Assembly: GCA_006503475.1 (NCBI GenBank) | Contig: RSEH01000111.1 | Coordinates: forward strand, 1 to 64,000 | DNA length: 64,000 nt | Reading direction: 5' to 3' | Origin: Stentor roeselii | Lineage: Eukaryota > Ciliophora > Heterotrichea > Heterotrichida > Stentoridae | Part shown: piece after piece, positions 13,419-61,754 of the stretch | How positions within the stretch are numbered: position 1 is the stretch's first letter | Layout of the letters: every line of letters begins with the position of its first letter | Notes under the pieces: model-generated | The model's database searches: none | What the model was told of the DNA's origin: nothing | The model's input: the letters and a program-made list of their open reading frames with translations, nothing else | Translations under genes and position numbers: made by a program

Positions 13419-14462
13419 CTATTTAAATGAATACCCCTCATCAAAAAGTATTCTACCTTTCAAATACAACTCACTCTCTGGCCTATCTAAAAACTCTCCA
13501 CTTTCCTTACAAAATTCATCAAACCTAATCAAAGAATTTTCTAAATAATCAAATCCTTGTGTTCCACCCTTCCACATGGCAAGATCCCAAACAGCCCAAA
13601 CAAAATTGCAACAAACAAAAGCTTTTTTAACCTGAACCCAAAACTGAATCCCTTCTCCATACCTCCTCACATATTCCGCAACAAGTCGATCATCAGGTCC
13701 TTTAACAGGATCAAACCCAAATCCAGGAAATTCATTAACAAGATAATCAAACCTCATGTCAGAAAGTAAAAAAGCTAAATCAAAAGCTTTATGTCCAAAG
13801 CCAGAAAACTCGAAATCAACTAAAGCGATTTTATTTTCATTTCTATTGAAAAGAATATTAAAAAAATTCAGATCAAAATGAACAAAACTTCTTTCTAAAG
13901 CCTTTGGAGCAATAAATAAAAACTTTTCCCAAAGCGAGTCACTTAACAATTCTTCAACTTTTCTCTTTTTTTCTAAGTTTTCAATAAAATCAAGTTTTAA
14001 CCTCCCAATTTTCCTCCACTTTTCCAAGTTTTCTAAAAGAATATCAGGTTCATCGTTCAAAATTTCTTCCATGTTGATCGAATGAATCGCTTTTAATTTA
14101 TCACAAATGAGTTGAATTACTGAAAGTTCGGATAAATCATTGTAAGTTAGAGGAAGGAAGTTTTCTAAGTATTCTTCAACTCGAGTTTCTGAATTCACGA
14201 AGAAAGTTTTAGGACCTTGTCCAAGTTGACCAAGTTTTTCGAATATTTTTCGTTCTCTTGACTTGTCAGTTACTTCGTTGGGGCCGAAGACTCGAAAGAT
14301 GACTGATTCAGGATCGGCTTGGCAGTGATTCGTGACTTTGAAGACTTTGTTTGAAGTGCCTGTCAATAGAGTGAAACTTATGGAATCTTTTGGAAGAAGT
14401 TTCCAATCGATCAAAGAGTTCTGAATGATTTTCAGGTAGTTGTTGAAAACCTCGGTTTCCAT
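13419..14462 (-). CDS. Choline/ethanolamine kinase-like protein
   Basis: 347 aa, starting at the ATG at 14462. The fold is the choline-kinase branch of the protein-kinase-like superfamily. A glycine/Asn loop lies near residues 34-42 (TGTSNKVFKV), followed by the IFRVFG strand typical of these kinases. The Brenner motif is H195-F-D197-L-N-F-F-N202, and the metal-binding aspartate is in LVDFEF (D216). The family phosphorylates choline or ethanolamine with ATP, the first step of the Kennedy pathway for phosphatidylcholine or phosphatidylethanolamine. The length is typical. Substrate choice between choline and ethanolamine cannot be read from the sequence. A decayed relative lies just upstream at about 15040-15700 on the same strand. 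Confidence 0.85.
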   Translation of the reverse strand: METEVFNNYLKIIQNSLIDWKLLPKDSISFTLLTGTSNKVFKVTNHCQADPESVIFRVFGPNEVTDKSRERKIFEKLGQLGQGPKTFFVNSETRVEEYLENFLPLTYNDLSELSVIQLICDKLKAIHSINMEEILNDEPDILLENLEKWRKIGRLKLDFIENLEKKRKVEELLSDSLWEKFLFIAPKALERSFVHFDLNFFNILFNRNENKIALVDFEFSGFGHKAFDLAFLLSDMRFDYLVNEFPGFGFDPVKGPDDRLVAEYVRRYGEGIQFWVQVKKAFVCCNFVWAVWDLAMWKGGTQGFDYLENSLIRFDEFCKESGEFLDRPESELYLKGRILFDEGYSFK

Positions 14463-14743
14463 TATTTATGATTTCAAGAATGGAAATTGAAGGATTTTTA
14501 GTGATTTGAGTTTAGGTATGTTTTTAGTAGTTTTTAGAAAGATGATAAGAATATATTTCTTTCAATCAATAATAAAGTATATGATGGTTATTAAATAAAT
14601 AGGTCCTCAGCTTTCAAATTCAAATAATTATCTCCTTATCTAAAACTTCTCAATTTCAATATCAAACTTTTGAAAACTTGTCAATGCATCATCAAATAAA
14701 ACCTTGTTTTCCAGATAGCAACATCGGAAATCCAGATATGATA
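14463..14743. other. AT-rich spacer upstream of the kinase gene
   Basis: About 280 bp with no ORF or recognisable element. It should contain the promoter of the choline-kinase-like gene and leads into the tandem duplication. Confidence 0.5.
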
Positions 14744-14927
14744 AATAAAATTGTAGTTAATAATAATTTTATCTTATTCTAAGTTCTTTATTTATCCAGG
14801 CATTGTTTCGATCACTGTGATAATTATCAAGAAATAATAAAATTGTAGTTAATAATATTTTAATCTTATTCTAAGTTCTTATTTATCCAGGCCTTGTTTC
14901 GATTACTGTGATAATTATCAAGAAATA
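14744..14927 (+). repeat. Tandem duplication, two copies of 92 bp
   Basis: Copy 1 is 14744-14835 and copy 2 is 14836-14927. They differ by a few substitutions and two compensating single-base length changes. Each contains TTTATCCAGG followed by TTGTTTCGAT and ends in GATAATTATCAAGAAAT. It has no coding potential. It lies between the kinase gene and its decayed copy and looks recent. Confidence 0.85.
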
Positions 14928-15039
14928 AGAAATTTCCAGATTAAATATAAAATAAGGGTGAAAAAATAAGTTTAAGATCAAGTAGAATATTTGAAGGAAA
15001 AATCCTGAAACAACAAAATTCTAACATAAAATCAATAAG

Positions 15040-15700: not shown

Positions 15701-15726
15701 GAAAAATTTAACAATCAAGAAAAGTG

Positions 15727-16104: not shown

Positions 16105-16184
16105 AGTTTCTACCAATTCTGAATGAATTATTCATTAAACAGGGAATAATTATTATCTGAACTATTCACGACCCCCTTTGATAA

Positions 16185-19100
16185 ATGGCTGTCGACTTTT
16201 CTTGTGTTTCAAGAAAACAACTGAGTAGTGAGTACCTTAGCAATAAACAGAACTTGGCTTTTATGCAGACTGACATCGATTATTACACGGGCGACAGTAT
16301 TTATAGTTCTAGTCAAGCTGCTATTATTAGGATTTATGGAGTCACTGAAGAAGGATTCTCGGTCATGGTTCATGTTCATTGCTTTGAACCGTATTTTTGG
16401 ACTGATGGACCAAATCATGTCAATGTTGGAACTGCTGAAGAGGTCAAAGCGAAAATCAACTCTTTTCCTCAGTGCAGGGATATGGTGGAAAAAATTGAAG
16501 TTGTTTATAAGGAAAGCATTATGAACTACTCTGAGGAAGGTAGAAGGCACTTTTTGAAGATTTTTACGAATGTACCGAAAAGTATCTCGACTATCAGGGC
16601 TATTATTGAAAAAGGAGCGCTTGAAGAAAAAATCACCGGTTCAAGCCAAACCTACGAGTCCAACATTCCATTCGCTTTACGTTTCATGATCGACACCGGA
16701 ATAGTAGGTATGTGTTGGATCGAATTACCAAGCGAGAACTACACAATCCGTAACGACAAGAACAAAAAATCAACATCTCAAATCGAAGTCGACATTCTTT
16801 ACTCCGAGATCCGAGTTCACAAGCCAGAAGGAGAATGGTCAAAATTGCCTCCTCTTCGAGTTCTATCATTCGACATCGAATGTAATAACAATGGCGTGAC
16901 TTTTCCAACTCCAGACAAAAACGAAGTGATTCAAATCGGCAACATCTGCAAAGTTCCAGGAAGTGATTCAGTGATAAGTCGTTGTATTTTCACTCTTGGA
17001 AAATGTGCCGAGATTGCTGATGCTAAAGTTTACAGTTTTGACAGAGAAGAAGACATGTTGATGAACTGGCGGGACTTCATCGTTGCTTTGGACCCGGATA
17101 TTGTAACAGGTTATAATATTTTGAACTTTGATTATCATTATTTGTTTAAAAGAGCAGAAAAATTGAGACTTAAGAAATTTCCTTATATGGGAAGGATTAG
17201 AGATGCAGCGACTCATATAAAAGATACAACTTTTCAGTCAAAAGCCCAGGGTTTAAGAGAAACTAAAGAAGTTTCTATGGATGGCAGGATTCAGTTAGAT
17301 ATGTTTCAACATATTCAAAGGGAACATAAACTTAGTCATTATTCACTTAATTCTGTTTCGCTTACTTTTCTGAAAGAACAGAAGGAAGATGTGCATTGGA
17401 CTATTTTAAAGGACTTGCAGGAAGGTACTGAGGAAAATAGAAGAAGAATTGCGGTTTATTGCTTGAAGGATTGCTATTTACCTTTGAGATTACTCGAAAA
17501 ACTTATGTGTATTTATAATTATGCGGAAATGGCTAGGGTCACTGGAGTGCCTTTTACTTTCTTGTTAACTCGAGGACAGCAAATAAAAGTCAGTTCGCAA
17601 TTATTGAGAAAAGCTGGGTCGTGTAATATGCTTATTCCTACTTATGTCAAGTCAGAGCTTGGGGATAAGTATGAAGGAGCTTTTGTGTTGGAACCTAAAA
17701 GGAATTATTATAATGTTCCGATAGCTACTTTGGATTTTGCCTCTTTGTACCCGTCGATCATGATGGCTCATAATCTTTGTTATTGCACGCTTGTATCTGG
17801 TGTACTTCGTAATCGCCTTCGTAGAGATGATTTCACTGAAACGCCAACAGGCGAGTACTTCGTGAAACCTTCTCTAAAAAAAGGTATCCTTCCAATGGTC
17901 TTAGAAGAGTTAATCGAGGCAAGAAAAAGAGCAAGAGAAGAGCTAAAAAACACAACCGACCCATTAATGAAAAAGGTTCTCGACGGTCGACAACTGGCTT
18001 TAAAAATTTCAGCAAATTCCGTTTACGGTTACACCGGAGCTCAAGTCGGTCAGCTTCCCTGTCTACAAATAAGTTCAAGCGTGACAGCCTACGGAAGGCT
18101 AATGATAGAAGAAACAAAAAACCAAGTCGAGTCTTTTTACTGTCAAAAAAACGGTTTCACTGCAGACTCCATCGTGATATACGGAGACACCGACTCAGTG
18201 ATGATAAACTTCGGCGTCGACGACCTTCCCACCGTCATGTCCCTTGGCCGAGAAGCAGCTGCTCACGTAACAAAAAGATTCATCAGTCCAATAAAGCTAG
18301 AATTCGAAAAGGTTTACTTTCCTTATTTGCTCCTCAACAAAAAACGATACGCAGGGCTTCTTTGGACGAACCCGTCGAATTACGATAAAATCGACATGAA
18401 AGGCATTGAAAGTGTCAGACGTGATAACTGTGAACTGGTCAGAGAAACTATCAACACCTGCTTACATAAACTTCTCATTGAAAGGAACCTTGATGGAACT
18501 GTGGACTATGTAAAAAATGTTGTTTCTGCCTTGTTGCAAAATCGAATTGACCTCAGCTTACTTGTTATTACTAAAGCTCTTGGAAAGAAATCGAAACAAG
18601 AAGGAAAAAGCACGAAAAATACTTATCAGGCTAAACTTGCACATGTTGAACTTGCTCAGAAAATGCAACAAAGAGATGCTTCTACTGCTCCGGCTGTTGG
18701 TGATCGAGTCGCTTATGTTATGATCAAGGGGACTAAAGGGCAGAAGGCTTATGAACTGGCTGAGGATCCGATCTTTGCATTGAAAAATGACTTGCCGGTT
18801 GATTTTGATTATTATTTGGAAAAACAACTGAAAGCGCCGCTTATGAGAATTTTTGAAGATGTTATTCCTAACTCTCAGTCACTTTTTAATGGGGAACATA
18901 CTAGGAAGAGGTATCAGCCCAAAGTCACTAGTGGGGCTATGTCTAAGTTTATTCATATCACTAATACCTGTATTGGGTGTAAAACGAGCTTGAAAAGTGG
19001 ATATCTTTGTGAGGGCTGTTTCCGCAACGCACCATCCATATACATGGAAAAAGCAATAAACGCCGGTAATTCCGAAAAGAACTTCCAAGAGCTCTGGGCC

Positions 19101-19244
19101 GAGTGCCAAAGATGTCAAGGTTCAGTATGCCAAGAAGTCCTATGCACAAACCGTGACTGTCCAATCTTCTACCGTCGAGAAAAGGTAAAAAAAGAGATGG
19201 ACCACATAAAAAACGAGCTTGACAAAATGTCAGCAGTTTGGTAA
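16185..19244 (+). CDS. POLD1: DNA polymerase delta catalytic subunit
   Basis: 1,019 aa family-B replicative polymerase, starting at the ATG after ATAA. The 3'-5' exonuclease motifs are visible: Exo I FDIE (D230, E232), Exo II NFDYH near 316 and Exo III YCLKDC near 428. Polymerase motif A is DFASLYPS at about 517, motif B KISANSVYGYTG at about 608 and motif C YGDTDS at about 666. The C-terminus has both Cys modules. CysA is CxxC...CxxC near 929-945. CysB is near 975-991, the motif that binds a 4Fe-4S cluster and the B subunit. These features separate delta from epsilon, alpha and zeta. It copies the lagging strand and proofreads in the nucleus. Codon choice flips between T/G-ending and C/A-ending blocks several times along the gene. 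Confidence 0.97.
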   Translation: MAVDFSCVSRKQLSSEYLSNKQNLAFMQTDIDYYTGDSIYSSSQAAIIRIYGVTEEGFSVMVHVHCFEPYFWTDGPNHVNVGTAEEVKAKINSFPQCRDMVEKIEVVYKESIMNYSEEGRRHFLKIFTNVPKSISTIRAIIEKGALEEKITGSSQTYESNIPFALRFMIDTGIVGMCWIELPSENYTIRNDKNKKSTSQIEVDILYSEIRVHKPEGEWSKLPPLRVLSFDIECNNNGVTFPTPDKNEVIQIGNICKVPGSDSVISRCIFTLGKCAEIADAKVYSFDREEDMLMNWRDFIVALDPDIVTGYNILNFDYHYLFKRAEKLRLKKFPYMGRIRDAATHIKDTTFQSKAQGLRETKEVSMDGRIQLDMFQHIQREHKLSHYSLNSVSLTFLKEQKEDVHWTILKDLQEGTEENRRRIAVYCLKDCYLPLRLLEKLMCIYNYAEMARVTGVPFTFLLTRGQQIKVSSQLLRKAGSCNMLIPTYVKSELGDKYEGAFVLEPKRNYYNVPIATLDFASLYPSIMMAHNLCYCTLVSGVLRNRLRRDDFTETPTGEYFVKPSLKKGILPMVLEELIEARKRAREELKNTTDPLMKKVLDGRQLALKISANSVYGYTGAQVGQLPCLQISSSVTAYGRLMIEETKNQVESFYCQKNGFTADSIVIYGDTDSVMINFGVDDLPTVMSLGREAAAHVTKRFISPIKLEFEKVYFPYLLLNKKRYAGLLWTNPSNYDKIDMKGIESVRRDNCELVRETINTCLHKLLIERNLDGTVDYVKNVVSALLQNRIDLSLLVITKALGKKSKQEGKSTKNTYQAKLAHVELAQKMQQRDASTAPAVGDRVAYVMIKGTKGQKAYELAEDPIFALKNDLPVDFDYYLEKQLKAPLMRIFEDVIPNSQSLFNGEHTRKRYQPKVTSGAMSKFIHITNTCIGCKTSLKSGYLCEGCFRNAPSIYMEKAINAGNSEKNFQELWAECQRCQGSVCQEVLCTNRDCPIFYRREKVKKEMDHIKNELDKMSAVW

Positions 19245-19293
19245 TTATTTCCTTTATAATCACTTCTTTCATAATAATTCTAATCCCGGCAAA

Positions 19294-21831
19294 ATGAATT
19301 TAGCGAAAAACAAAAGCAGTTCAAAAGTTCTCAATGAAAAAACAGTCGCTGAAGTCAACTTGCTTCAAAAACTCAAACCACGGCAGGTGACAATCGAAAA
19401 AGAAAGACTTTACGAAGAAAACCTCGAACTTAAACTAATCAGCAACAACCTGAAAGAAGAAAACTTGAAACTCAAGACAAAAATCCAGCAGATGGAAAAA
19501 GAAATCAACAAAAAAGAAGAAAACGAGGAAAAACACGCTTATTCCATTAAACCTCCAAATCTTGTCGCGAATTTCAAGTCAAAAATCAAAGACCTGAAAA
19601 ATCAACTACGAGAAAAAACTGAAGAAATTGAAAAACTCACAAAAAATATCAAGTCTAGCAAAATCTTTGAACAGGAAAAAGAAATTTCAGCTTATGTTGA
19701 AGAATGTTCGAGACTCAAGAAAATAATTGAAGCGACTTTAGGTCCTAATGAGAATCTTCATAAAGTAATCACGGAAAAATACTCAGATCTCAACTCGATG
19801 ATTGAAGATATCAACAAAGAAAACAAAGACCTGCATAAATCTCTCGCTTTTCACAAGCAAGAACTTGAAAAAGCTCGACAAAAAATCCTGGAAAATGAAA
19901 AACGCAAGAAAAAAATGACTTCAAATAAATCTGACGTCCAACTTCTTAAAAAAGAAATTTTTAAATTGAAAGAACTCAATGAAAGTCTCGCAAGGTCCAT
20001 CGATGAAGGTTCGAACAAGGAAAAGATGTTTAGAGAAGAGGTCTTTAAATTGAAAAAAGCTTTAAAGGACTCAAAAACTCGGACTTTGACTTTAGAAGCT
20101 AGTCTAAAAGAAGCGAATTTTCAAATCGTGCAGCTTTCTCAAACAACGCAAAAAGGGAACTCGACAACTGAAACAGTTCTTCCTTTAGGCCTGGTTGAAC
20201 CGATGCCCTTGATGGTCAAAACTGTTCGGCTCGCTCTTGGAAGGGCAGGAGTCTCTGTTAATAGTTTTTTCGAGGGGCTTGACAAGTCGAAGACGGGAAA
20301 AGTCTCTTATGATGAGTTCAGCCAAGCACTTCAAAGGCTTGGGACTTATTTGACAAACTCGCATTTCAACTCTGTGCCTTCTGCTTGTCTTAAGAATGAG
20401 TTTATGATTGATTTGAATGTTTTGGAGAGAATTGTTAAGGAATCATCGAAAATATTAATTATTGATAGCAAGGAACAAACACCTATTGTTAGCACTTTTG
20501 ATTTTGAAAGCCCTGTTCACCCTGGAAAGGGAGAAAAAATGCTCTTGGGGGGGAAACCAGTAGAGTCTCCTAAAGATGATTTGATGAAAATTTCTATTTT
20601 TCCTCCAGTGGACAACACAAAACAGGTGAACTCCGACAGTTGCAAACATTCAAAACGTTCAAAAGGTAAGAAATTCGAGGTTTTCGTAGTTTCAGACGAG
20701 GACTCAAAGAACTCAAAAACCTCAAAAAATCCAAAAAGTCGTCCAAAAAGCAAAACGTCAGACAAAAGAAAATCCATAAAACGAGCATCAAGAGATTCAG
20801 AAGACAAGTCCTCACAATCCCTAATAAGCCAAGAGCCAGTTTACACCCGTGAGCTTTTAAGTTCCTTTGAGCACATCTGCTACAAAATGCAGTTAAACCG
20901 CCTTTTAAAGTCAAAACTTCAGATAACTTTATTCGGCGCCATCGACAAAGACAAAGTTTTAACTCGAGCCGAACTTTTCCAGTTCTTACAAAAAAGTCCA
21001 TTTTCCATAAAAAATGGAGAAATTTCTGACCCACTTCTCGACTTCTTCATCACAAGTGGGTCTACTGCGAGGCTTATCTGTGAAAAAATGCTTCCATTGC
21101 TGCAAGAATGGGAAGTTTTCACTGCTGAGGATGAAGAGGTCTTTGACTATCAACTTGGACTTATTATCAGTAAAAATAAGTCGTTTTTGAAGACAAAGTG
21201 TAAAGAAGCTGATAAAGATGCACGTGGGTCGATTAAAGTTAGTGACTTTGAAAAGATTTTAAGTGAGTTGGGAGTCGTTGTGCCTGATAGACTTTGGAGT
21301 TATATGAAACTTTTGTTCTATTCGAATGACTCGGAATTGGATGTCATGCCTTATCGATACTTTATTAAAGCTTATGGAAATCCTATTGAGTCTAGACATG
21401 AACATTCGAATATTTCAGAAAGTCCGGACTCGCAGACTGTTAATTTTTATCTCTCTGCTATATGCTCGGCTTTGGCCAGTCATAACCTTCACCTATCCGA
21501 GGTATTCGAATGTGACGAAGACGGTTTGATCTTCATAGACCAGTTCCTATCAGGTTTAAAACTATTAGGTTTCGAAGAAATAGACGAGGAGCAGGTTTCA
21601 ATAGTGATGGAAGCACTGCGTTACCAAGGCAGTTACGATTTATGTCTCTCTCTCCAAGAAATGACAGAGATCCTTCAAAATTTCGACCAATGTCGACTAT
21701 CAAACAACCCAAGTGGTTCCCAACTAGAACTTCCCGATCATCTAGTTACAGAAGACAGTAAAAAGTTCGGAATCATTAAACTGATCAAAAATGATTCATT
21801 TGAGGATTCTCCAGTGCATCTTTCAGTATAA
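19294..21831 (+). CDS. Coiled-coil protein with EF-hand-like repeats
   Basis: 845 aa from the ATG at 19294. A longer in-frame reading from a TTG inside the polymerase gene is unlikely. Residues about 20-290 form a long Lys/Glu-rich coiled coil. EF-hand-like helices follow: DKSKTGKVSYDEF near 330-345, DKDKVLTRAELF near 548, ADKDARGSIKVSDF near 640 and CDEDGLIFIDQF near 740. A basic Ser/Lys linker lies near 460-520. Several loops keep Asp/Glu ligands, so calcium binding is possible. The architecture suits a cytoskeletal or cortical scaffold, which is inference. It converges on the eIF4G-like gene with 13 bp between stops. Confidence 0.75.
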   Translation: MNLAKNKSSSKVLNEKTVAEVNLLQKLKPRQVTIEKERLYEENLELKLISNNLKEENLKLKTKIQQMEKEINKKEENEEKHAYSIKPPNLVANFKSKIKDLKNQLREKTEEIEKLTKNIKSSKIFEQEKEISAYVEECSRLKKIIEATLGPNENLHKVITEKYSDLNSMIEDINKENKDLHKSLAFHKQELEKARQKILENEKRKKKMTSNKSDVQLLKKEIFKLKELNESLARSIDEGSNKEKMFREEVFKLKKALKDSKTRTLTLEASLKEANFQIVQLSQTTQKGNSTTETVLPLGLVEPMPLMVKTVRLALGRAGVSVNSFFEGLDKSKTGKVSYDEFSQALQRLGTYLTNSHFNSVPSACLKNEFMIDLNVLERIVKESSKILIIDSKEQTPIVSTFDFESPVHPGKGEKMLLGGKPVESPKDDLMKISIFPPVDNTKQVNSDSCKHSKRSKGKKFEVFVVSDEDSKNSKTSKNPKSRPKSKTSDKRKSIKRASRDSEDKSSQSLISQEPVYTRELLSSFEHICYKMQLNRLLKSKLQITLFGAIDKDKVLTRAELFQFLQKSPFSIKNGEISDPLLDFFITSGSTARLICEKMLPLLQEWEVFTAEDEEVFDYQLGLIISKNKSFLKTKCKEADKDARGSIKVSDFEKILSELGVVVPDRLWSYMKLLFYSNDSELDVMPYRYFIKAYGNPIESRHEHSNISESPDSQTVNFYLSAICSALASHNLHLSEVFECDEDGLIFIDQFLSGLKLLGFEEIDEEQVSIVMEALRYQGSYDLCLSLQEMTEILQNFDQCRLSNNPSGSQLELPDHLVTEDSKKFGIIKLIKNDSFEDSPVHLSV

Positions 21832-21844
21832 TAATTATTTATAC

Positions 21845-25570: not shown

Positions 25571-25868
25571 GAGAATAGATTAATGGGTTTGGATAATTTT
25601 ATGGAAGGGTTAAATAGGTTAGTGAATGGTTTTAATGATAGAGTAATAATTTGTATCAAATAAATTTTGATTATATCATTTTTTATGTTTATTTCAAATT
25701 TACCCTAAACTAAAATCTTATATTCAAGAAACAATCTGTAAAATTTTAAATATTCAGGACTTTTATATTTTTAAACCAACTCAATAAACTCCTTAAATAA
25801 TCTCCCACATCATTTCTATTAAAAGTATAAACCCTCAGTCCTCTAATATCCAAACTTAAAACAAAAAA
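25571..25868. other. AT-rich spacer between same-strand genes
   Basis: 298 bp between the kelch gene stop and the next ATG. There is no ORF or RNA gene. The segment just before the ATG is A/C-rich on the plus strand. Confidence 0.4.
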
Positions 25869-31232: not shown

Positions 31233-31374
31233 TTCCCTTGTTTATTGTTGTTATCTTTGATTAACAATTGATTTCAATTTGTAGGTTTCAAGACAACAGG
31301 GCTTCACATCTGAAAATTCCATAAAAAACCTTTAAAAACTCTTTCAATCTAAAAATCCTTTAAAACTGATTATT

Positions 31375-38867: not shown

Positions 38868-39329
38868 TAAACTAGACTTTTCTTTAGTGAATTTTGGTTT
38901 GGGTGTTGGGTTAGAGATTTCTAGAATTTTAGAGTGAAGGGGGCTGAGGGATTATGGAATTTTTTTGAATATGTTTAGGATGGATTGGGTAATGAAGGAT
39001 TAGTTTTTAGGGATTATCTGGTTAATTTTTATTTTTGAAGAAGGACTCTTGTGGATTTATTTGAAGGATGTAGGTTTAGGATATCTTGGATTAGTAACCA
39101 TCTCTTACAATAATTATTAATAAAGAATAAGCAATACTCTCAGTTGTTTTAATCAAGCGAATAATTTTAGTTATTAGTAAGAAAAATATAGAATAAGTCT
39201 ATTCAATACCCTATAATTTTCAATTTAATGATTAACAGAATAAACTATTCAACAGATTGATCTAAGGACCCTACTACCAAATTTCTAAAAAGTCCTTAAT
39301 TCACTTTCATACTATTGTCTATAATTAAT
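38868..39329. other. AT-rich spacer
   Basis: 460 bp between two same-strand genes. The first 190 bp are G/T-rich and the last 100 bp A/C-rich on the plus strand. No ORF or RNA gene was seen. Confidence 0.5.
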
Positions 39330-47345: not shown

Positions 47346-47719
47346 TATGTTTATTTTGATGTGATTTTAGGGTTTTTTAATGAGCTTTAGAGGGGTGGGA
47401 GAGGATTTTTTTGGTTTGGATTATGGAATTGTGATGAAGGAGATTAAGTGGTTTTTTTTTTGAATTTTGATAATATGGAATTGTTCATTTTTTGAATTTG
47501 ATATACGACTTGTTTATTATTTTAACGTGGATTAAAGAGAAATTTGTTTAGTAGAGATTATAGAGAGATTCATTATTTTAATAAGGAATTTCATGTTATT
47601 CATTGGATTAAGGTGATTTTTTATTTTATGACTAGTTCAATTTTTCAACGTAAATTACAAGGAATTTAAAAAAAATCATGCATTTACAGAATAATCGAAA
47701 ATCTTTCAAATTATTAATT
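47346..47719. other. AT-rich spacer upstream of the CDPK gene
   Basis: 374 bp, T/G-rich on the plus strand near the kinase start (47346-47520) and A/T-rich after that. No ORF, repeat or RNA gene was seen. It should include the CDPK promoter and the 3' end of the neighbouring minus-strand gene. Confidence 0.5.
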
Positions 47720-48237: not shown

Positions 48238-49635
48238 ATGGTTTTCATTTTCGTCCTTTTCCACGTCACTTCCGCTCTGTTCAAAGAAGAAGACCACGTG
48301 ATTGTCCTTGAAGACTCCAACTTCGAAGAAGCTCTTCAGACATATCCTTCTCTTTTAGTCGAGTTTTACGCTCCTTGGTGCAAGTTCTGTCAACAACTCG
48401 CTCCGATGTACGCGAAAGCTGCGGATAGGCTCTTGAAGCATGACCCTCCGATTCGAATAGCGAAGACTGACGCGACTGTTCACATTGAGTCAGCTCGAAA
48501 GTACAACATTGAAGGATACCCTACTTTGAAATTCTTCACCTCAGGAGTACCTAACGAGTTCACAGGTGTTAAAAATGAAGAGGGCATCGTCAGTTGGCTT
48601 GTGAAGAGAATCGACCCACCTGCAAAGATTTTGGAAAATCAGGAACAGTTGGAAGGTTTTATTGATCTTCATCCGGTTAGTGTTGTTTTGTTTGGAGGAG
48701 AAAGTCAGGTTGTTAGGTTGTTTGAAAAAGTGGCAAAGAATTTAGAAGGGAATTTTTATGCTGTTTGTAATGATTTACTAGTTGCGAAGAAGTTTGTACA
48801 GGATAATGCTATTGTTGTGTTTAAGGATAAGGAAAATCGCAAGTCTGAGTTTTTTGGACCGTTTGTGGAAAGTGAGATTAATAAGTTTATTGAAAAAAAT
48901 TTGGTGCCTTGGATTCTTCCTTTTGATGACCGAATAGTCCAGTTAGTATTCAAAAAGCAAAACCCAGGACTATTCATCTTCAGAAAAGAAAAAGACTCAT
49001 CTTCATTCCAAGAAACATTAGAAACCCTATCCAACAAATTAAAAGGTTATCCAATAGTAACCTACGCTGACCTAGAAAGTTCAAACAATAAAAGACTAGT
49101 CGAGTTTCTAGGTCTTCCTGCGAACTGGATGCCATTTGCCGTGATAGTAAATGAAAAATTTCAAAAATTCATTTTAAGGACAGATCTTTCTCTTTCCTCC
49201 CTCGAGTCTTTTTGGCTCAGATGGACCAACAACGAAGAAAAACCTTTTCTTAAGAGTCAGCCGATCCCTTCTAGCACCTTCGACAATGATGTGAGAATAC
49301 TTGTCGGAGATAACTTTAAAGATATAGTATTTGATAGAAATTTCGACGTTTTAGTCGAGTTTTATGCGCCTTGGTGCGGCCACTGTAAGAAAATCGCTCC
49401 TGAATACACAAAATTAGCTAAAAGGTTCAAAGGTGTTAGTAGTGTGGTTATTGGAAAAATTGATGCGACTGAAAATGAAATTGAAAATTTTGATATTCAG
49501 GAATTCCCGACTATCAAATTCTTTCCTGCTAATAACAAGGATGGAATTGATTTCATTGGGAAAAAAGATGTGGATGGTCTTGAGAGGTTTGTTCTGGACA
49601 ATGCCGCTCTCCCAATAAGAAAAGAAGAACTTTGA
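48238..49635 (+). CDS. Protein disulfide isomerase
   Basis: 465 aa with a signal peptide (about residues 1-14) and a C-terminal KEEL (462-465), a KDEL-type ER retrieval signal. Domains are a-b-b'-a'. The first thioredoxin domain carries C48-K-F-C51 instead of CGHC. The second carries the classical C380-G-H-C383. The middle domains have thioredoxin-like strands without active cysteines. The enzyme forms and rearranges disulfides in the ER lumen. CKFC would change the redox potential of the first site. The neighbouring giant Cys-rich surface proteins would be natural clients (inference). Confidence 0.95.
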   Translation: MVFIFVLFHVTSALFKEEDHVIVLEDSNFEEALQTYPSLLVEFYAPWCKFCQQLAPMYAKAADRLLKHDPPIRIAKTDATVHIESARKYNIEGYPTLKFFTSGVPNEFTGVKNEEGIVSWLVKRIDPPAKILENQEQLEGFIDLHPVSVVLFGGESQVVRLFEKVAKNLEGNFYAVCNDLLVAKKFVQDNAIVVFKDKENRKSEFFGPFVESEINKFIEKNLVPWILPFDDRIVQLVFKKQNPGLFIFRKEKDSSSFQETLETLSNKLKGYPIVTYADLESSNNKRLVEFLGLPANWMPFAVIVNEKFQKFILRTDLSLSSLESFWLRWTNNEEKPFLKSQPIPSSTFDNDVRILVGDNFKDIVFDRNFDVLVEFYAPWCGHCKKIAPEYTKLAKRFKGVSSVVIGKIDATENEIENFDIQEFPTIKFFPANNKDGIDFIGKKDVDGLERFVLDNAALPIRKEEL

Positions 49636-49653
49636 ATAGGAATTAGAATAAAA

Positions 49654-50616: not shown

Positions 50617-50630
50617 GGAATCTTAAATAA

Positions 50631-52687: not shown

Positions 52688-52763
52688 GAGATGGTATTAG
52701 AGTTAGTTTATGGGAAGAAAGAATAAAAGATTGATTTAATTGAGTTTTTATAGCTCTGAATAT

Positions 52764-54326
52764 ATGAAAATAGCCATAGTTGGTGCAGGACCAGTAGGTT
52801 TGACAATGTCGCACCTGCTCTCAAAGATCGGTATCTCCAACTCGATATACGAGGGAAAGCCAACACTATCCACGCATCCAAGTGCTCACTTCATCCATTC
52901 ACGTTCAATGGAAATCTTTTCCTCTCTAGATCTTTCATCTCCCATCTACTCCAAAATGACTCCTGAAAATGACTGGCGTCGATTTATCTACACATCCTCA
53001 ATAACAAGCGACCCTTACCGGATCCAAGATCATTTCCTTTCACCATCCTACAAAAAAAACCAATTACTGACCTCATACCCTCCAGTTCACTTTTCCCAAC
53101 ACAAACTAGTATCTCTTCTTTCTTCAACCCTGCCATCAACGAGCACTCTTCACCTAAACAAAGAAATAAAACTAGTAGTTCCAGGGCAAAGAGAAAAAGA
53201 CTCGTTAAAAACAACCCCAGCAAGACTTTTCACAGCAGACAATGAAATAATCGAAGCTGACTACGTCATCGCCTGTGATGGTTCCAGAGGCCAAACACGA
53301 GAACAGCTGGGAATCAATCTTGACTCAAGCGAATCCCTTCAAAATTTCCTTAACATTCACTTTTCCTCTAAACAACTCGCGGAAGTCTGTAGAAAAAACC
53401 CGGGAATGATTTATTTTATTTACAACCCCAAAGCAGTTGTTGTACTCGTCATGCACAGCGTGGAAGATGCGGAATTTGTAATTCAGGTCCCTGACTTCCC
53501 GCCTCTTACAAGAGCGAATGACTATTCAATAGAAAAAGCGGTGGAAGTTATTAACTCTTGCTTTTCAACAGGAGAAAATCATTCAAAACTTGAAGATATC
53601 AGCATAAAATCAATTAAAAACTGGAAAATGTCTGTAAGATCAGCTGAAAAACTCAGAGTTGAAAATGTTTTCTTAGCAGGCGACGCTGCACACACGATGA
53701 CACCGGCAGGAGGATTCGGTTTAAATACAGGAATAGGAGATGTGCATAACTTATACTGGAAATTTTTGTTTCCTGAGATTTTAGACTCATATGAAGAAGA
53801 AAGAAAAGACAAAATCCAGAAAGTTCTTAATAAAAGTTATGCAAATTACATGGTCGTTGTGAAAATCGCTGAAAACTTCGGTTTGGATATTAGAATGATC
53901 AAACCTATCAAATCAATCATGGAATTTATTCCTTTTGGTTCTTTTTTTTTTAAGAATATTGTAAAAACTGGTCAAGAGGTTTTATTTAATGATACAAATG
54001 CCAGGACGTTTCTGGCTAAAGATACAAATTTACTGAATTTGATATTTCCTGAAGATGATCTGGAATTCAGATATGCTCAAGGATTCTTCATTGATGAAGC
54101 TGGTGAACTTGCTAGTAATAAAAAAGTGTTTTTTGAAGGAAAAGAAGAAGATTTGCGTCTTTTGCCAGGAATTCTTACAAATCGATTTAAAACCCCGATG
54201 TTTTTAAAGGTTGTGGGAAATTCTCCAGTACAAGAAGTGGATTTTCCTACTTTTGACTTGAATTTAAATGAGGAGCAGTCAATGATTATCAGGCCAGATG
54301 GTCATATTTACTGGAAAAGCATTTAA
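52764..54326 (+). CDS. FAD-dependent aromatic-type monooxygenase
   Basis: 520 aa from the ATG at 52764 (MKIAIVGAGPVGLTMSHLL). The Rossmann motif GAGPVG is at residues 7-12. The DG motif reads YVIACDGSRGQTR near 172, and the GD motif FLAGDAAHTMTPAGGFGLNTGIGD near 300. This order defines class A flavoprotein hydroxylases (PheA/TfdB/UbiH group), which insert one oxygen into an aromatic ring using NAD(P)H. A C-terminal thioredoxin-like region is suggested by length. The substrate is unknown. Closest types are phenol- or polyketide-modifying hydroxylases, and a role in pigment or secondary metabolism is possible but unsupported here. Confidence 0.88.
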   Translation: MKIAIVGAGPVGLTMSHLLSKIGISNSIYEGKPTLSTHPSAHFIHSRSMEIFSSLDLSSPIYSKMTPENDWRRFIYTSSITSDPYRIQDHFLSPSYKKNQLLTSYPPVHFSQHKLVSLLSSTLPSTSTLHLNKEIKLVVPGQREKDSLKTTPARLFTADNEIIEADYVIACDGSRGQTREQLGINLDSSESLQNFLNIHFSSKQLAEVCRKNPGMIYFIYNPKAVVVLVMHSVEDAEFVIQVPDFPPLTRANDYSIEKAVEVINSCFSTGENHSKLEDISIKSIKNWKMSVRSAEKLRVENVFLAGDAAHTMTPAGGFGLNTGIGDVHNLYWKFLFPEILDSYEEERKDKIQKVLNKSYANYMVVVKIAENFGLDIRMIKPIKSIMEFIPFGSFFFKNIVKTGQEVLFNDTNARTFLAKDTNLLNLIFPEDDLEFRYAQGFFIDEAGELASNKKVFFEGKEEDLRLLPGILTNRFKTPMFLKVVGNSPVQEVDFPTFDLNLNEEQSMIIRPDGHIYWKSI

Positions 54327-54348
54327 AGCAACTATAATCTTAGCTTAA

Positions 54349-56667
54349 CTACTCAATAGAAGGTGGTTCTTCATGTTTCACTTCTTCTTTTAAGCTTTTT
54401 TCACTCATTGGCCTGCTTTTTTTCTCTTCTTTTGGATGGGCTTCTTCTTTTCCGGAGCCGTTGTGGTCTGAGTGGTGCTCACTTAGTTTGACCTCTTCAT
54501 GACTTTCTTTCGCCTCTGGCTTCAGAGATCGCTTGGATGAGGACTGCTTCAGTTCTTCGTGGTCTGAATGCGGCTTGGACTCGCTTGGTTTTACTTCGCT
54601 GTGGACTTTTGAGTCTTCATGTGCTGGAGCTTCTGGAGGCTTTGCTGATGGCTCTGGAGGCTTTACTACGGGCTCTGGAGCCTTTGCTACGGGCTCTGGA
54701 GCTTTTGCTACGGGCTCTGGAGCTTTTGCTACGGGCTCTGGAGCTTTTGCTACGGGCTCTGGAGCGTTTTTTGGAGGCTCAGGAGCTTTCGGAGCAGGTT
54801 CAGGTGCTTTCTGCACAGGTTCAGGTGCTTTTTGCACAGGTTCAGGTGCTTTCACAGGAACTTCACTTTTCTCTTCTTTTTTCTGTGCAATTTCAGGAGG
54901 TTTCTGTTTGCTAGGAACAGGATGACTTTCTTCCTTCTTCTTATCAACCCTAACCTCTTCACCAATTCCAACCTGATGAAAGAAATCAGTTTCAAGTTTT
55001 CTAATCCTCTCAGCAAGTTTTTCCTTCTGTTTTAAAATCAAAGTTTCATCCCTTTTCGCACTTCTCTTTCCTTCATTCTGCCTTTTCGCGGCTTTCAAGT
55101 TTTTTTCCCTCGTATATTCCCTTTCAAGCATTTGTTTAATCGACAACTTTTCATTACTTTGTGGGACATAAAGACTTTCACAGAGTTCAATAAGAGTGAC
55201 AGTTCCTTCAGCATCTCCAATAGCGACAAGTGACCCGAACTTAGCAGCATTGATATTAGACTGAACATTGATAGTAGTAAGCATGCAATCTCCAACTTTA
55301 TGCGAATAAGCGATTTCATTTTGCCTGTAGTGATAGTCCCAGATATGCATCCACCCGTCCATCTGTGTCAAAAAGAATACTCCAGGACGCGTGGGGCTCC
55401 AACAGCCGTCAGTCAAGTAAGTGTCATGATACTTCGTCGTCATTATCGGGGTGTTAATGTCTTCTGACCAGATCTTCGCGGTCCAGTCGCCGACAGTTAA
55501 AAAACATTTACTTTCTTCAGGGTTCCTCTGAATCGCATAAATCGGGCCATGGTGTTTTCCACCTTCAATGCCGTATCGATGACTGATGTCCACCGCTTTC
55601 TGAGGCTTTTTATTCGCCTGGATCACGATGCCTTGTTCAGTCCCTGCCAGGTACTTCGTCGCTCCTGCTTCTGGGTTGTATTCCAAACAAGTACCTCCTA
55701 AGATGCTTTCTTCGTTTGTCTCGGGGTTGATCATTCCGTCTGTGATTTTGCAGGAATCGATCGGCTCCTTGTCTTTGCGGAAGTCCCACCACATCATCCG
55801 CCCGTCTGTCGACGCGGATACGAACTCGTTGCCTGACTTGCCGTGGAGCCAGTAAATGTCGTACACTGGCTCGTGATGAGATTTTTCTATCTGCGTCTGC
55901 CAGTTTGGAGAGTTCTTGGTTTCTCGCATGTCCCATACTGATATCACACCGTTGTAACAACCTCCTACTAGGAAGTCTGTGTACTTTGTGTTGAAGGCTA
56001 GGGTGCATAATGGACTTGCACCTTGAATCGTTTTTACTGCTGTGTTTGGAGCTGACATGTCCCAGATGTAACTTTGGATGGGCATGCGTTCAGGCATTTG
56101 CTGAAACCTCATAATTGAATAAGCAACAGCGAGTTTATTTCCAGGACTTTCAGGGTTAAATGCAACTTTATTGACACTTCTCTTGATATCATTGGGGTCT
56201 TTAAAGAGCATCAAAGTTTTAGTGCTTAAAGTTTCAGTAGAGTGATCGACAGTTTCTCCAATAAAGTATTCTTCAAACAAGTCAATCTGATTGTTCATCT
56301 TAATTGTTTTAGTGGTGAGTTCTGACAACTCCTTGACCGCCTGAGACAACTCCTCCTTTTTTAGCGCCTTCGTGCGCCACTTGACAATATCATGTTCTTC
56401 GCTATAGTCGACTTCAGCAGGCCATCCTCCTTCAACATGCTTCATTCCTTTAGGCTTAAGACTCAGGCGCTCTGTGTTGACCTCATGCGTTGACAGCAAA
56501 GGAATGTTGTCCAGGGTTATCGTTGAAGGGTCCCGCGTCACGTATTGGTTTTTTCGCTTTTCGAACTCGCTTGGGTGGTTTGCAAGGGACTTCAGCTCTG
56601 AATCTTCGAAAACGAATCCTCGTTCAAACAGGTTTCTCTTCTTTTTGTAAGTGAAGGGTTCCACCAT
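54349..56667 (-). CDS. DNAI2: Outer-arm dynein intermediate chain 2 (DNAI2/IC69-like)
   Basis: 772 aa. The N-terminal YKKKRNLFERGFVFEDSE and the following GGWPAEVDYSEEHDIVKWRTKALKKE segment are hallmarks of the IC2/IC69 (ODA6) family. WD40 repeats occupy about 200-560. The C-terminal 200 residues begin with a helix (about 505-555) and then carry an 11-unit heptad repeat of the KAPEPVA type before a Ser/Lys/Glu-rich acidic tail. The family holds the outer dynein arm to the axonemal doublet. The long repeat tail is an extension beyond the conserved core. Confidence 0.95.
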   Translation of the reverse strand: MVEPFTYKKKRNLFERGFVFEDSELKSLANHPSEFEKRKNQYVTRDPSTITLDNIPLLSTHEVNTERLSLKPKGMKHVEGGWPAEVDYSEEHDIVKWRTKALKKEELSQAVKELSELTTKTIKMNNQIDLFEEYFIGETVDHSTETLSTKTLMLFKDPNDIKRSVNKVAFNPESPGNKLAVAYSIMRFQQMPERMPIQSYIWDMSAPNTAVKTIQGASPLCTLAFNTKYTDFLVGGCYNGVISVWDMRETKNSPNWQTQIEKSHHEPVYDIYWLHGKSGNEFVSASTDGRMMWWDFRKDKEPIDSCKITDGMINPETNEESILGGTCLEYNPEAGATKYLAGTEQGIVIQANKKPQKAVDISHRYGIEGGKHHGPIYAIQRNPEESKCFLTVGDWTAKIWSEDINTPIMTTKYHDTYLTDGCWSPTRPGVFFLTQMDGWMHIWDYHYRQNEIAYSHKVGDCMLTTINVQSNINAAKFGSLVAIGDAEGTVTLIELCESLYVPQSNEKLSIKQMLEREYTREKNLKAAKRQNEGKRSAKRDETLILKQKEKLAERIRKLETDFFHQVGIGEEVRVDKKKEESHPVPSKQKPPEIAQKKEEKSEVPVKAPEPVQKAPEPVQKAPEPAPKAPEPPKNAPEPVAKAPEPVAKAPEPVAKAPEPVAKAPEPVVKPPEPSAKPPEAPAHEDSKVHSEVKPSESKPHSDHEELKQSSSKRSLKPEAKESHEEVKLSEHHSDHNGSGKEEAHPKEEKKSRPMSEKSLKEEVKHEEPPSIE
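54622..54852 (-). repeat. Coding minisatellite, 11 units of 21 bp in dynein IC2
   Basis: Eleven in-frame 21-bp units encode KAPEPVQ/KAPEPVA-type heptads. The central four units (about 54680-54763) are nearly identical, while the outer ones have drifted, so expansion is recent in the middle. Glycine-rich ORFs on the opposite strand over this region are by-products of the repeat. Confidence 0.9.
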
Positions 56668-57423: not shown

Positions 57424-57495
57424 GAAAATGTTTAATAAAACAATAGCTCTATACAAAGAGATTCCATTGAAAAAGTGTTAAATTAATAAACTCTT

Positions 57496-57981: not shown

Positions 57982-58032
57982 TCTTCTCTTTATTATTCGA
58001 AATTAGGATGAAACCCTTCATATTTATTGTTC

Positions 58033-59166: not shown

Positions 59167-59168
59167 AA

Positions 59169-59735
59169 ATGTTGTTCCTCAAGTCTCGCTCTAGCTGGCT
59201 TAAACGCAATAAAGAAATTTCTCCTGTCAGGGGAGGACGGAAAAGGTTTGATGTGCATAAAAATCGAGAAAGCTTTAAAGATGTTGACTCGATTCGCTTC
59301 TCGAAGACGCCTTTGAAGTCGATAAGATCGGAAAGAAAACATTTTCGAGTCGATTTGTCTGCGGAAAATTCATCTGCTAGGAACTTGTCACATGTCAAGC
59401 TTAGTCCTATTGATGGGTACTTTCAAAAAAAATTGAAGGAAAAAGAATCAGAAATTCATTTGTTGAAAGGGTTGTATAAAGATACTAATCAACAGTTACT
59501 TGAAATTAAAAAACAGTATCGGGTTAAACGGCCGATTATTGAACAGTTTAGACCTGTTGAGGTACCTAGAATGGACTTTACACCTGAACCTAGGTTATAT
59601 ACGAATATGGAAATTTTTAAACAGAGGGTGTTGACACAGCCTAAGTTTACAAAATCGAATCCGAAAATTATTTTGACCAGTCCAATAACAGGTGTATCTC
59701 CAAATTTTTCATCAATATCTCCTACTTTCCTTTAG
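59169..59735 (+). CDS. Basic protein with central helix, unknown
   Basis: 188 aa, ATG at 59169, two bases after the UBXN6-like stop (TAG AA ATG). Lys/Arg/Ser-rich N-terminus, a coiled-coil-like helix at about 82-115 (YFQKKLKEKESEIHLLKGLYKDTNQQLLEIKK), and a Pro-rich end (ITGVSPNFSSISPTFL). No 15-nt intron joins it to the upstream frame. The tight spacing leaves no room for its own leader unless it starts within the upstream gene. Confidence 0.6.
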   Translation: MLFLKSRSSWLKRNKEISPVRGGRKRFDVHKNRESFKDVDSIRFSKTPLKSIRSERKHFRVDLSAENSSARNLSHVKLSPIDGYFQKKLKEKESEIHLLKGLYKDTNQQLLEIKKQYRVKRPIIEQFRPVEVPRMDFTPEPRLYTNMEIFKQRVLTQPKFTKSNPKIILTSPITGVSPNFSSISPTFL

Positions 59736-59789
59736 TTACTAATAACCTGAATAATCTTCCCAATTATTCTCTCTATATGTGAATTAAGA

Positions 59790-60446
59790 ATGGACTTTTC
59801 CTCATATGCAAATACTTTCGAAGATCCAATCGATTCAACAGCAGAAGTCCGAGTTCTCAAGCCACGAATCGAGATGAGTCCGTATTCAATCCACTCAAAT
59901 TTAAAACTAAAACCTCACCACCCAAGAAACAAGCGAATCCTGAAGGTGGAATCAATCGGTTTAGAAATTTTTCATATAAAAGACTCAAAAAACGAAGATT
60001 TTTCACTAAGTCTCCAAGGCCCTTCATATTTACACGTCTACAAAGAAGACAAGTTCATAGAGCAAGCTCTTTTTTCATTAAGAACGTCGAAAAGATCGAA
60101 AAATTCTCAAGGCTGTTACGTTAAAATCCCTGAACAAGGACTGTTTTTACCGAGTCAACAAGGAAAAAGAAGCCCTAATCAAGCGAGACTCAGTTCTTCA
60201 AGACAGTTTAAAAGTTCTCAAAGGTCTCAAACAGCTGAAGCTGTCAGAGAACCTTCCCCTGTTAGAAGTAGTTTTCGCCAAAAAGAAGCGAAATTCGTGA
60301 AAAGAGAACTTTTACCTCAGACTAAAGCGAGTCTTGCTTCGAAATTGAAACTGAATCTGGAAAGTTTGAATGTTAGAGGAACTATCAAGGATTTTGCTAT
60401 TAGGCAGCTTGGAAGAAGTAGAGGATGGAGCCAAAGTCCGAGATAG
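59790..60446 (+). CDS. Basic protein, unknown
   Basis: 218 aa from the ATG at 59790, preceded by TATATGTGAATTAAGA. The N-terminal half may be folded (LKVESIGLEIFHIKD...SLQGPSYLHVYKEDKF), and the C-terminal half is Ser/Arg/Lys-rich and disordered. No domain recognised. Confidence 0.6.
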   Translation: MDFSSYANTFEDPIDSTAEVRVLKPRIEMSPYSIHSNLKLKPHHPRNKRILKVESIGLEIFHIKDSKNEDFSLSLQGPSYLHVYKEDKFIEQALFSLRTSKRSKNSQGCYVKIPEQGLFLPSQQGKRSPNQARLSSSRQFKSSQRSQTAEAVREPSPVRSSFRQKEAKFVKRELLPQTKASLASKLKLNLESLNVRGTIKDFAIRQLGRSRGWSQSPR

Positions 60447-60506
60447 GGTGGAGGGATTGTAATTTGAATTGGTCGTGATTACTGAAAGTTTAGAATTTAA
60501 TAAATT

Positions 60507-61754
60507 ATGTCAGGCTGTCCCTTTTTCTCGACTACCAAGCCAATAAAACAACCCTTTTCTAATATTCCGAAACCGTCTTCATCAGATCCGAGTCCTTTTA
60601 TAATAGAGCGTAAGTACGAACAGCCTTATTTCTCTCCATACCAAGAGATGTTCTTGAAATACGAGTTGACCGCAAACAAGCCATTGAGTTCAATGGAATT
60701 TCACATGAAAAACTCTATTTTCCATCATTCATACGTCACGAAATTCCGAACATCAGACCTATCCAGCCGAGTTCTAATGGCAAACGAGTTGCGAGAAGCA
60801 GGGAACCGAAACTACAACAAAGGTCACTATTCAAAGGCCTGTCTGTGTTACGAGCACGCATATGGTTTATTTAATTACTACCAGCAAGTCGGAGGCGACT
60901 TCCTCCTGACCAGACTCGACCCAAGCGAGTCAAAACTTGACGGCGCGATTGAAATGCTAGAAAAAGTCCTGACAAACTACGCCTATGGACTTATCGCTCT
61001 CAGTCACTTCAAACAAGCGCAAATTCTATTAAAAGAAGCTAAAAGTTATTTAAACTCAAGTGAAGTAAAAGCTGCTGAAATCGTTTTAGTTCTGAATAAC
61101 CTCGAAAGTGACTTCGAGACAATCTGCAAGTTTTCAGTGATTTTCCCTGAACTTCAAGTGAAAAACAAGAAGTTTTTGGAACTTGAGAAAAGCTTTAATG
61201 CGGTTATTTACAAGATTCAACAGGAAAGATGTCAGTTCTGGGCATTGTTTTTTCAAGAGTATTCGAATGAAGCTCGCACGAAACCTTTAAGCAACTTTGA
61301 CTTGGAGTTCATTGTTGTGAGTAGTTTGAATGAAAAGTATGAGAAAATGATGGAGTATTATAAAGAAACTGAAAACTTTGAAAAAGTTGCTGCGGAAAGG
61401 AAGGAAGTTATGAAAGTTCTCAGTTTGATGAAAATGGCTAAAAAGGTGAAGATCACTGATAATGATGATATCATGCTTGCCCATGCCAAAAGTGCTGGAA
61501 TCTCACTTGAACATTATGCTGCTGGGATTAGATTTGAAGCTGCTAAGAGAAGCTTTATTACCAAAGTTTTTAATCAGGGAAGCTTTAATAAAAGGCTTTT
61601 GTATGATTGTATACAACAGGCTATGAGTGAGTTTGAGCAAAAGGTAGAGGTTAAGGATAAAACGGACTTGGAACTTCAGTTTTGGCAAAGGAATTTAGTC
61701 GCTTGTGTTGTTTTTGCTGTTATCGCATTTTTTATGTCGGCTTCTCCGTTTTAG
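60507..61754 (+). CDS. Tail-anchored TPR-like protein
   Basis: 415 aa from the ATG at 60507, preceded by TTTAATAAATT. A Pro/Ser-rich N-terminus is followed by helical pairs. One good TPR reads ANELREAGNRNYNKGHYSKACLCYEHAYGLF (about 90-122), and helices NYAYGLIALSHFKQAQILLKEAKSYL lie near 162-187. The last 20 residues are a hydrophobic segment (NLVACVVFAVIAFFMSASPF) with only a few residues beyond it, which is a tail-anchor for ER, mitochondrial or peroxisomal membrane insertion. It is probably a co-chaperone-type membrane adaptor; exact identity unknown. Confidence 0.75.
   Translation: MSGCPFFSTTKPIKQPFSNIPKPSSSDPSPFIIERKYEQPYFSPYQEMFLKYELTANKPLSSMEFHMKNSIFHHSYVTKFRTSDLSSRVLMANELREAGNRNYNKGHYSKACLCYEHAYGLFNYYQQVGGDFLLTRLDPSESKLDGAIEMLEKVLTNYAYGLIALSHFKQAQILLKEAKSYLNSSEVKAAEIVLVLNNLESDFETICKFSVIFPELQVKNKKFLELEKSFNAVIYKIQQERCQFWALFFQEYSNEARTKPLSNFDLEFIVVSSLNEKYEKMMEYYKETENFEKVAAERKEVMKVLSLMKMAKKVKITDNDDIMLAHAKSAGISLEHYAAGIRFEAAKRSFITKVFNQGSFNKRLLYDCIQQAMSEFEQKVEVKDKTDLELQFWQRNLVACVVFAVIAFFMSASPF

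Follow-up and report, generated by a model that had tools for sequence, protein, structure and literature searches.

Background

Human skew domains follow a sawtooth of base composition on a megabase scale, with flips of two kinds, sharp and gradual, and a ramp that runs from border to border. Strand asymmetry that changes side at a point has also been reported around DNA breaks. According to the accessible part of PMC7615360, the forward strand of human PRDM9 hotspots carries C>N and A>N mutations and the reverse strand their complements, an asymmetry attributed to single-stranded tails and their re-synthesis, with the tails on the forward strand to the left of the break and on the reverse strand to the right. 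In yeast, bidirectional 5'->3' resection gave mutated C to the left and mutated G to the right of the switch (PMC6786661, accessible part). For the heterotrich ciliate Blepharisma, with a genome of 41 Mbp, approximately forty thousand eliminated sequences have been described, about 70% of them intragenic and three quarters bounded by TA (PMC9942856, accessible part). Here we describe a skew of silent letters in a stretch of 64,000 bp of Stentor roeselii DNA (contig RSEH01000111.1, positions 1–64,000; GenBank assembly GCA_006503475.1), referred to as the window, in which the skew changes sign at points within ordinary genes. No earlier description of such a pattern was found in the open PMC literature, where most candidates were judged without full text.

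The sample consisted of three contigs with a total of 267 kb, which is 0.6% of the 44.4-Mb genome of 522 contigs: C16, on which the window lies, C35 and C40. Some step counts cover 227 kb; C40 was fetched separately later and used for replication. The open reading frames (ORFs) are unannotated and some are possibly wrong; those of at least 120 codons cover approximately 80–82% of the sequence. The score of a flip centre is the threshold met on both sides, centres with a score of at least 25 being called strong, and centre coordinates give 90% of the posterior together with the peak. Contig ends carry CCCTAACA telomere repeats (220 forward and 327 reverse triple repeats, against 0 and 0 for a reversed-pattern control), the same repeat as in Blepharisma telomeres (PMC9942806, accessible part). 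TAA, TAG and TGA each terminate long ORFs, whereas Blepharisma reads UGA as tryptophan (same source and part). We regard the sequence as somatic DNA from a heterotrich ciliate that uses the standard code.

Results

Skew of silent letters compared with chance

The silent-letter skew is real and goes beyond chance. The main example of the earlier, sequence-only reading of this DNA lies in POLD1, the ORF for the catalytic subunit of DNA polymerase delta (16185–19244, + strand; Pfam DNA_pol_B, exo and zf-C4pol; PDB polymerase delta chains), which has three strong centres. Its counts were exact on recount: 19 of 24 codons end in T or G at 18711–18782 and 7 of 30 at 19020–19109, with 19 G and 10 C against 10 G and 16 C in the two 60-base lines compared. 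The centre between them is located at 19009–19023 (peak 19016, score 42.8). To its left lies a G/T-rich arm (18570–19015 on the + strand, from third-position bins; approximate extent, about 450 bp) and to its right an A/C-rich arm, which runs past the stop codon into the next gene (19017–19460 on the + strand, from 100-bp skew; approximate extent). The other named flips were borne out as well. Third positions were G/T in 58 of 186 cases at 30105–30660 and 127 of 190 at 30661–31232, and in 76 of 136 at 37021–37430 and 27 of 104 at 37440–37749. In the ORF of the cytosolic methionyl-tRNA synthetase (MetRS; 42093–44411, − strand; PDB MetRS chains), the three named stretches gave 126 of 200, 76 of 227 and 154 of 240.

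The codons of 31 hand-listed ORFs (14,816 codons) were shuffled 300 times with codon usage and amino acids fixed per gene. This null failed to reproduce the skew runs, so that neither amino-acid content nor codon usage explains the skew. Third-position autocorrelation was 0.042–0.067 at seven lags from 6 to 60 bp, where the shuffle maximum was 0.024; at 3 bp it was within the shuffle null. The correlation persisted to approximately 180 bp, was about zero at 240 bp and became an anticorrelation at 450–900 bp (−0.031 at 450 bp and −0.044 at 600 bp, outside the 300 shuffles). The variance of 30-codon windows was 65.4, against 24.3 ± 1.6 under shuffling, and the T-over-C and G-over-A skews covaried (r = 0.32, 360 windows).

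In the 267 kb, 79 centres scored at least 25, compared with 1–4 in eight codon-shuffled copies, and 148 scored at least 15, compared with 37–47, so about 40 of the 148 are due to chance. At a score of at least 8 the numbers were 215 and 176–198; since shuffled sequence gives nearly as many, these centres are mostly chance, and a density of 0.8–0.9 centres per kb with a spacing of about 1 kb, based on that low threshold, was dropped. Net of chance, the density is approximately 0.4 per kb at a score of at least 15 and 0.29 at 25 or more. Within 450 bp of a centre of at least 15 lie 48% of the bases of the three contigs, a quarter to a third of those centres being expected by chance.

Sharp and gradual flips

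On the + strand the skew forms a sawtooth, in which the G/T-to-A/C flips are sharp and the A/C-to-G/T flips are gradual. After correction for amino acid and coding strand, the sharp steps in 227 kb ran mostly from G/T to A/C: 26 did so against 1 in the opposite direction with 60-bp arms, 43 against 12 with 90-bp arms and 58 against 21 with 120-bp arms; from 250-bp arms upward the counts of both directions were equal. An exponential 60-bp kernel gave 36 against 0 in favour of G/T to A/C. Contig C40 showed the same direction with few events (2 v 0, 4 v 2, 7 v 3 and 7 v 6). The asymmetry is identical from either strand, because reverse complementation maps a G/T-to-A/C flip onto itself.

In a pooled fit with free amplitudes, the best width of the G/T-to-A/C flips was 6–10 bp, with a loss of 17.0 and 22.5 log units at 30 bp (n = 121 and 68); these were the sharp centres with sufficient sites, out of 148 and 79 at scores of at least 15 and 25. 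For the A/C-to-G/T flips the best width was 60–90 bp, and at 10 bp the loss was 67.0 and 17.6 (n = 138 and 55). A held-out test, in which half of the sites placed the centres and the other half measured them (50–62 centres per run), showed sharp flips at full strength within 20–30 bp, steady to approximately 300 bp and gone near 475 bp; gradual flips needed 100–150 bp. Within 10 bp of the fitted centre the held-out signal was about zero, as expected from location error. The difference in sharpness was weaker in simple all-base counts.

Paired arms around the sharp flips

The two arms of a sharp flip belong to a single event. Outer arm amplitudes, measured outside the detection zone, correlated between left and right at sharp flips (rho 0.42, 0.46, 0.40 and 0.29; n = 237, 120, 212 and 118), whereas at gradual flips rho was 0.03, −0.05, 0.00 and 0.03 (n = 248, 103, 242 and 103). 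Left and right of the centre alike, the skew favours T over C and G over A on the strand whose 5'->3' direction points toward that centre. The arms reach 450–500 bp, alike whether the next centre is 1.3–1.8 kb away (69 sides) or more than 1.8 kb (39 sides); even on the latter the field is about zero past 500 bp and does not ramp to the next border.

These results change the picture given by the sequence-only reading. Its strand-asymmetric, mutation-like process at silent sites stands, while its equivalent flips and its blocks of reversing polarity fall: nearly all sharp flips go one way, the two arms of a sharp flip covary, and the pattern is centred on points instead of running in blocks of consistent length. 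A period was not found either (between 1 and 6 kb the autocorrelation stayed within ±0.006; coefficient of variation of the spacing 0.78 at scores of at least 15 and 0.91 at 25 or more). The suggested replication unit is argued against by the reach, which is independent of the distance to the next centre.

Genes of either orientation show one and the same sign on the + strand, as the sequence-only reading had noticed, so the field does not follow the coding strand. At intergenic bases around 164 centres, placed from coding sites only and with coding sequence required on both sides of the centre, the signal was +0.137 ± 0.033 at 40–120 bp and +0.010 ± 0.020 at 400–500 bp (outward: +0.137, +0.124, +0.096, +0.052, +0.010, then −0.040 and −0.039), with errors that ignore the correlation between sites. 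Without that requirement the sign looked reversed, because some coding-placed centres fell at gene ends. Strong centres had no preferred position along ORFs (8, 8, 13, 11 and 12 of 52 by fifths), and 64 of the 79 were inside ORFs, which make up 79.6% of the sequence, with detection favouring coding sequence.

Codon positions 1 and 2 drifted weakly in the same direction (keto +0.031 ± 0.006), so proteins are touched too. Within 240 bp of 59 selected centres, fourfold sites of the affected strand had a T/(T+C) of approximately 0.84–0.93 and a G/(A+G) of about 0.5, compared with about 0.67 and 0.28–0.33 beyond 600 bp, values that are inflated by the choice of strong centres. The corresponding ratios at held-out third positions were about 0.77 v 0.62 and about 0.50 v 0.36. 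If taken as equilibrium values, these ratios would imply roughly two to four times as much C>T, and roughly twice as much A>G, in the neighbourhood of strong centres. The T-for-C and G-for-A shifts go together and are present in every neighbour context, least after G.

Centres in paralogous genes

A second full-length POLD1 ORF of 1,024 codons is present at C35:104346–107417, its protein being 79% identical to that of the window copy. Fourfold sites of the two copies are nearly saturated (identity 0.36, against 0.29 by chance). There is no relation between the third-position fields of the copies (r = −0.17, 50 bins), and their centres differ: 16624, 17832 and 19016 in the window copy, 105261 (which scores only 18.3), 106399 and 107054 in the other. 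At the 317 silent sites that differ as G/T versus A/C between the copies, each copy tends toward its own field (r = 0.52). Closer paralogues share fields, with r = 0.93, 0.85 and 0.70, and 0.36 for a 72% pair; these values are for all bases, and shared protein sequence contributes to them. The pair with r = 0.93 is a tandem pair that is unsaturated (fourfold identity 0.59 v 0.31) and has its strongest centre at the same base, give or take one or two, as judged by eye from printed flanks. The points thus survive duplications but are replaced on roughly the time scale of silent-site saturation. Tandem duplicated ORFs with common skew fields are located at C35:123100–131636.

Sequence at the centres and candidate enzymes

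Four motifs were tried as marks of the centres. CAGTC, CTGAC, ACCAG and GATCC occurred 10, 7, 7 and 8 times at 69 centres (expected 2.0, 1.7, 1.6 and 2.1) and 12, 12, 11 and 10 times at 123 centres (expected 6.1, 3.6, 4.9 and 3.9). They were rejected on C40, where 30 centres gave 1 v 1.3, 2 v 1.1, 2 v 1.1 and 0 v 1.5 expected, respectively. Inverted-repeat stems at the centres had a mean of 5.07 against 4.85, which was judged no different. Telomere-addition sites were also rejected as the points, 13 telomeric ends being without a strong field.

Searches of the genome gave 0 matches each for DDE_3, MULE, PiggyBac (PF13843) and ADAR; control genomes gave no match for the last two either, and the PiggyBac result is a weak negative. 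IS1595-type transposases gave 12 matches (C3, C339, C20, C135, C61, C8 and others), including six intact-looking open frames of 385–473 amino acids; several others contain stops, and one lies at the telomeric end of C11. A Spo11-type gene was represented by one TP6A_N match. There were 12 matches to the Piwi domain (C46, C43, C114, C73 and others), so that small-RNA machinery is well represented, 4 to dCMP deaminase and 1 to uracil glycosylase. None of these protein-family searches decides the mechanism.

Strong centres in the window

Besides the centre at 19016, POLD1 contains centres at 16607–16633 (peak 16624, score 27.2) and 17812–17858 (peak 17832, score 31.8). Before this gene a centre is present at 9955–9984 (peak 9969, score 32.8), and after it at 20597–20629 (peak 20612, score 34.5), 21450–21491 (peak 21476, score 31.9) and 26492–26517 (peak 26511, score 27.7). 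Two of the flips named earlier coincide with centres, the one at 37430/37440 with 37428–37449 (peak 37438, score 41.1) and the one at 42690/42720 in MetRS with 42689–42715 (peak 42698, score 37.2). The end of the G/T stretch at 30660–31260 corresponds to 31207–31312 (peak 31289, score 28.9), which is outside the listed ORFs, as are 25649–25704 (peak 25695, score 30.8), 39083–39204 (peak 39096, score 32.2) and 47621–47691 (peak 47638, score 35.5). The top score of the window was found at 46178–46211 (peak 46190, score 49.0); 34434–34450 (peak 34440) scored 46.5, 48919–48942 (peak 48929) 45.4 and 44694–44791 (peak 44755) 38.4. The remaining centres are 49593–49635 (peak 49598, score 28.3), 52742–52812 (peak 52754, score 26.6), 54757–54792 (peak 54775, score 29.6), 59670–59711 (peak 59676, score 32.0) and the poorly placed 60493–60669 (peak 60630, score 25.8).

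The start of the contig carries an inverted duplication of approximately 2.9 kb (window 1–2869 and 3330–6201). The copies are 82% identical, near-identical at one alignment end and diverged elsewhere.

Discussion

The fields described above are paired around points, with one polarity, a short reach, a sharp step and independence from genes. From these features we infer a break, single-stranded tails and deamination, and we consider it fairly probable that germline DNA has been broken recurrently at fixed points, its tails of about 0.45 kb being deaminated. A sharp flip would then be a fixed point at which the inherited (micronuclear germline) DNA recurrently breaks or opens. The 5' ends would be resected, leaving both 3' strands single-stranded over approximately 0.45 kb, and until the duplex forms again, cytosines and adenines in the tails may deaminate or be copied wrongly (C to T, A to G). 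Through many such rounds in evolution, the strand running 5'->3' inward would become G/T-rich, which on the + strand means G/T to the left and A/C to the right, with a step that is sharp at the point and fades with tail length. Purifying selection would clear most protein-altering changes, so that the scar would remain mainly at silent and intergenic sites. The polarity seen on both sides agrees with the one described for resected breaks in yeast (PMC6786661) and for human hotspots (PMC7615360). The shift in all neighbour contexts suits general single-strand damage over a strongly motif-bound deaminase.

As to the nature of the points, the missing sequence mark, the sharpness of about 10 bp, the indifference to genes and the copying along with duplications suggest a germline insertion that was removed from the somatic sequence. 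An insertion precisely removed from the sequenced genome is the identity that we tentatively favour. In a more specific and rather doubtful version, the strong centres would be sites of germline-limited DNA whose excision involves no TA mark; the enzyme might be one of the IS1595-type transposases or another non-PiggyBac excisase. Meiotic break sites come next after the insertion and seem somewhat unlikely.

Several observations weigh against recurrent breakage as the explanation. Base composition serves as a proxy for mutation throughout. None of the centre motifs replicated on C40, and TA was not in excess: it occurred within 6 bp of 20 of the 37 well-placed centres (20.0 expected), within 4 bp of 17 (14.0 expected) and within 8 bp of 23 (24.0 expected), which argues against TA-bound eliminated sequences at the centres. 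The 13 telomeric ends, which are real 3' ends, had a mean skew per 100 bp of +1.8 ± 3.0 in the first bin and +7.1 ± 2.8 in the second, with no consistent signal in later bins. Meiotic hotspots have 1–2 kb of resection and a break spread of about 100 bp (PMC7615360, accessible part), against 0.45 kb and about 10 bp here. Of 121 single centres, 28 were best fitted by a width of 130–180 bp. When amplitudes were fixed, the width fit preferred 180 bp for sharp and gradual flips alike, an effect of imposing full strength on weak arms; free amplitudes reversed this outcome.

Replication polarity could produce the observed sign if forks converged at the points, or started there with the opposite strand bias, so that exposure of the lagging strand skewed both sides; converging forks at the centres give the right polarity. 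Human replication domains also combine sharp and gradual skew, but their sharp jump is upward and not downward. Moreover, the field here stops at the same distance whatever the position of the next centre, without a ramp to the midpoint, and starts or stops of replication would be needed every 1–3 kb or so, which is the centre spacing. We regard this as unlikely. The same reading of the sign is available from transcription, if converging non-coding transcripts, R-loops or small-RNA-guided opening ended at the centres. An exposed non-template strand gains C>T, as was proposed for the 3' subtelomeric GC skew of Halteria (PMC7858049, accessible part), and the twelve Piwi matches fit such an origin. 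However, the field ignores the gene strand, strong centres have no positional preference in ORFs and lie in them as often as the sequence does, and two transcript ends within approximately 10 bp would be required every time, which makes this quite unlikely. The sign fits in both cases, but with the short fixed reach, the sharpness and the indifference to genes, fork or transcript polarity is not easily sufficient.

Exonic enhancers flank introns, and by analogy selection might maintain G/T-rich and A/C-rich flanks of insertions because an excision or targeting machinery needs them. Sharp, gene-independent paired fields and the common position in one tandem pair would fit; nevertheless, all neighbour contexts shift, codon positions 1 and 2 drift along and the reach is hundreds of bases, for which a broad mutational push is simpler, and we hold selection to be very unlikely. 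Independent blocks of opposite strand polarity without special points, the model of the sequence-only reading, would account for same-sign runs longer than in codon-shuffled controls. They are contradicted by the asymmetry in flip sharpness and by an arm correlation at one kind of flip only, and are highly improbable. That the pattern arose by chance, from codon usage or the amino-acid composition, or as an artefact of assembly has a practically negligible probability: most centres of score 8 are indeed chance, but such an origin is contradicted by the codon-shuffle controls, by the intergenic signal, and by ORFs that remain open and amino acids that align between paralogues.

If recurrent germline breakage with damage to single-stranded tails is correct, mutation at fixed points, and not codon preference, shapes many genes of this ciliate. 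Break-linked single-strand mutagenesis, so far familiar from rare yeast clusters and from a mild footprint at human hotspots, could then set codon usage patchwise across ordinary genes. Plain sequence would yield maps of breaks or insertions, the sites of germline DNA cutting in ciliates would become directly testable, and work on codon usage and dN/dS in such species would be unsafe without correction. Should the points be excised insertions, leaky or programmed germline cutting would be a major source of point mutations in the species, and the somatic sequence alone would map the hidden insertions and breaks of the germline.

Comparison with known systems

The sawtooth resembles that of human skew domains, which have the opposite sign at the sharp flip, whereas the fields here have a fixed reach of 450–500 bp. 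Halteria, also a ciliate, shows a GC skew at the 3' subtelomeric ends of its nanochromosomes, for which deamination of exposed single strands was suggested (PMC7858049, accessible part). That skew lies at the ends of one-gene chromosomes; here the flips are inside exons, and the 13 telomeric ends lack a strong field. The eliminated sequences of Blepharisma, another heterotrich, share with our centres the fixed points irrespective of reading frame and the location mostly in genes (PMC9942856). They are mostly bounded by TA, unlike the centres, and the accessible part of that report mentions no strand-asymmetric flanks, the word 'strand' occurring 0 times in it. Yeast double-strand-break clusters have the same polarity around the switch (PMC6786661, accessible part). 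They are one-off clusters in mutagenised cells, whereas the changes here accumulated at recurrent points and include A to G. As in human PRDM9 hotspots (PMC7615360, accessible part), strand asymmetry switches at a point, in our case by composition and not by observed mutations. PRDM9 hotspots have a sequence motif, tails of 1–2 kb and a spread of about 100 bp, with mutations counted in people; here no motif was found, the reach is about 0.45 kb and the spread about 10 bp, and the effect is strong or old enough to mark the base composition itself.

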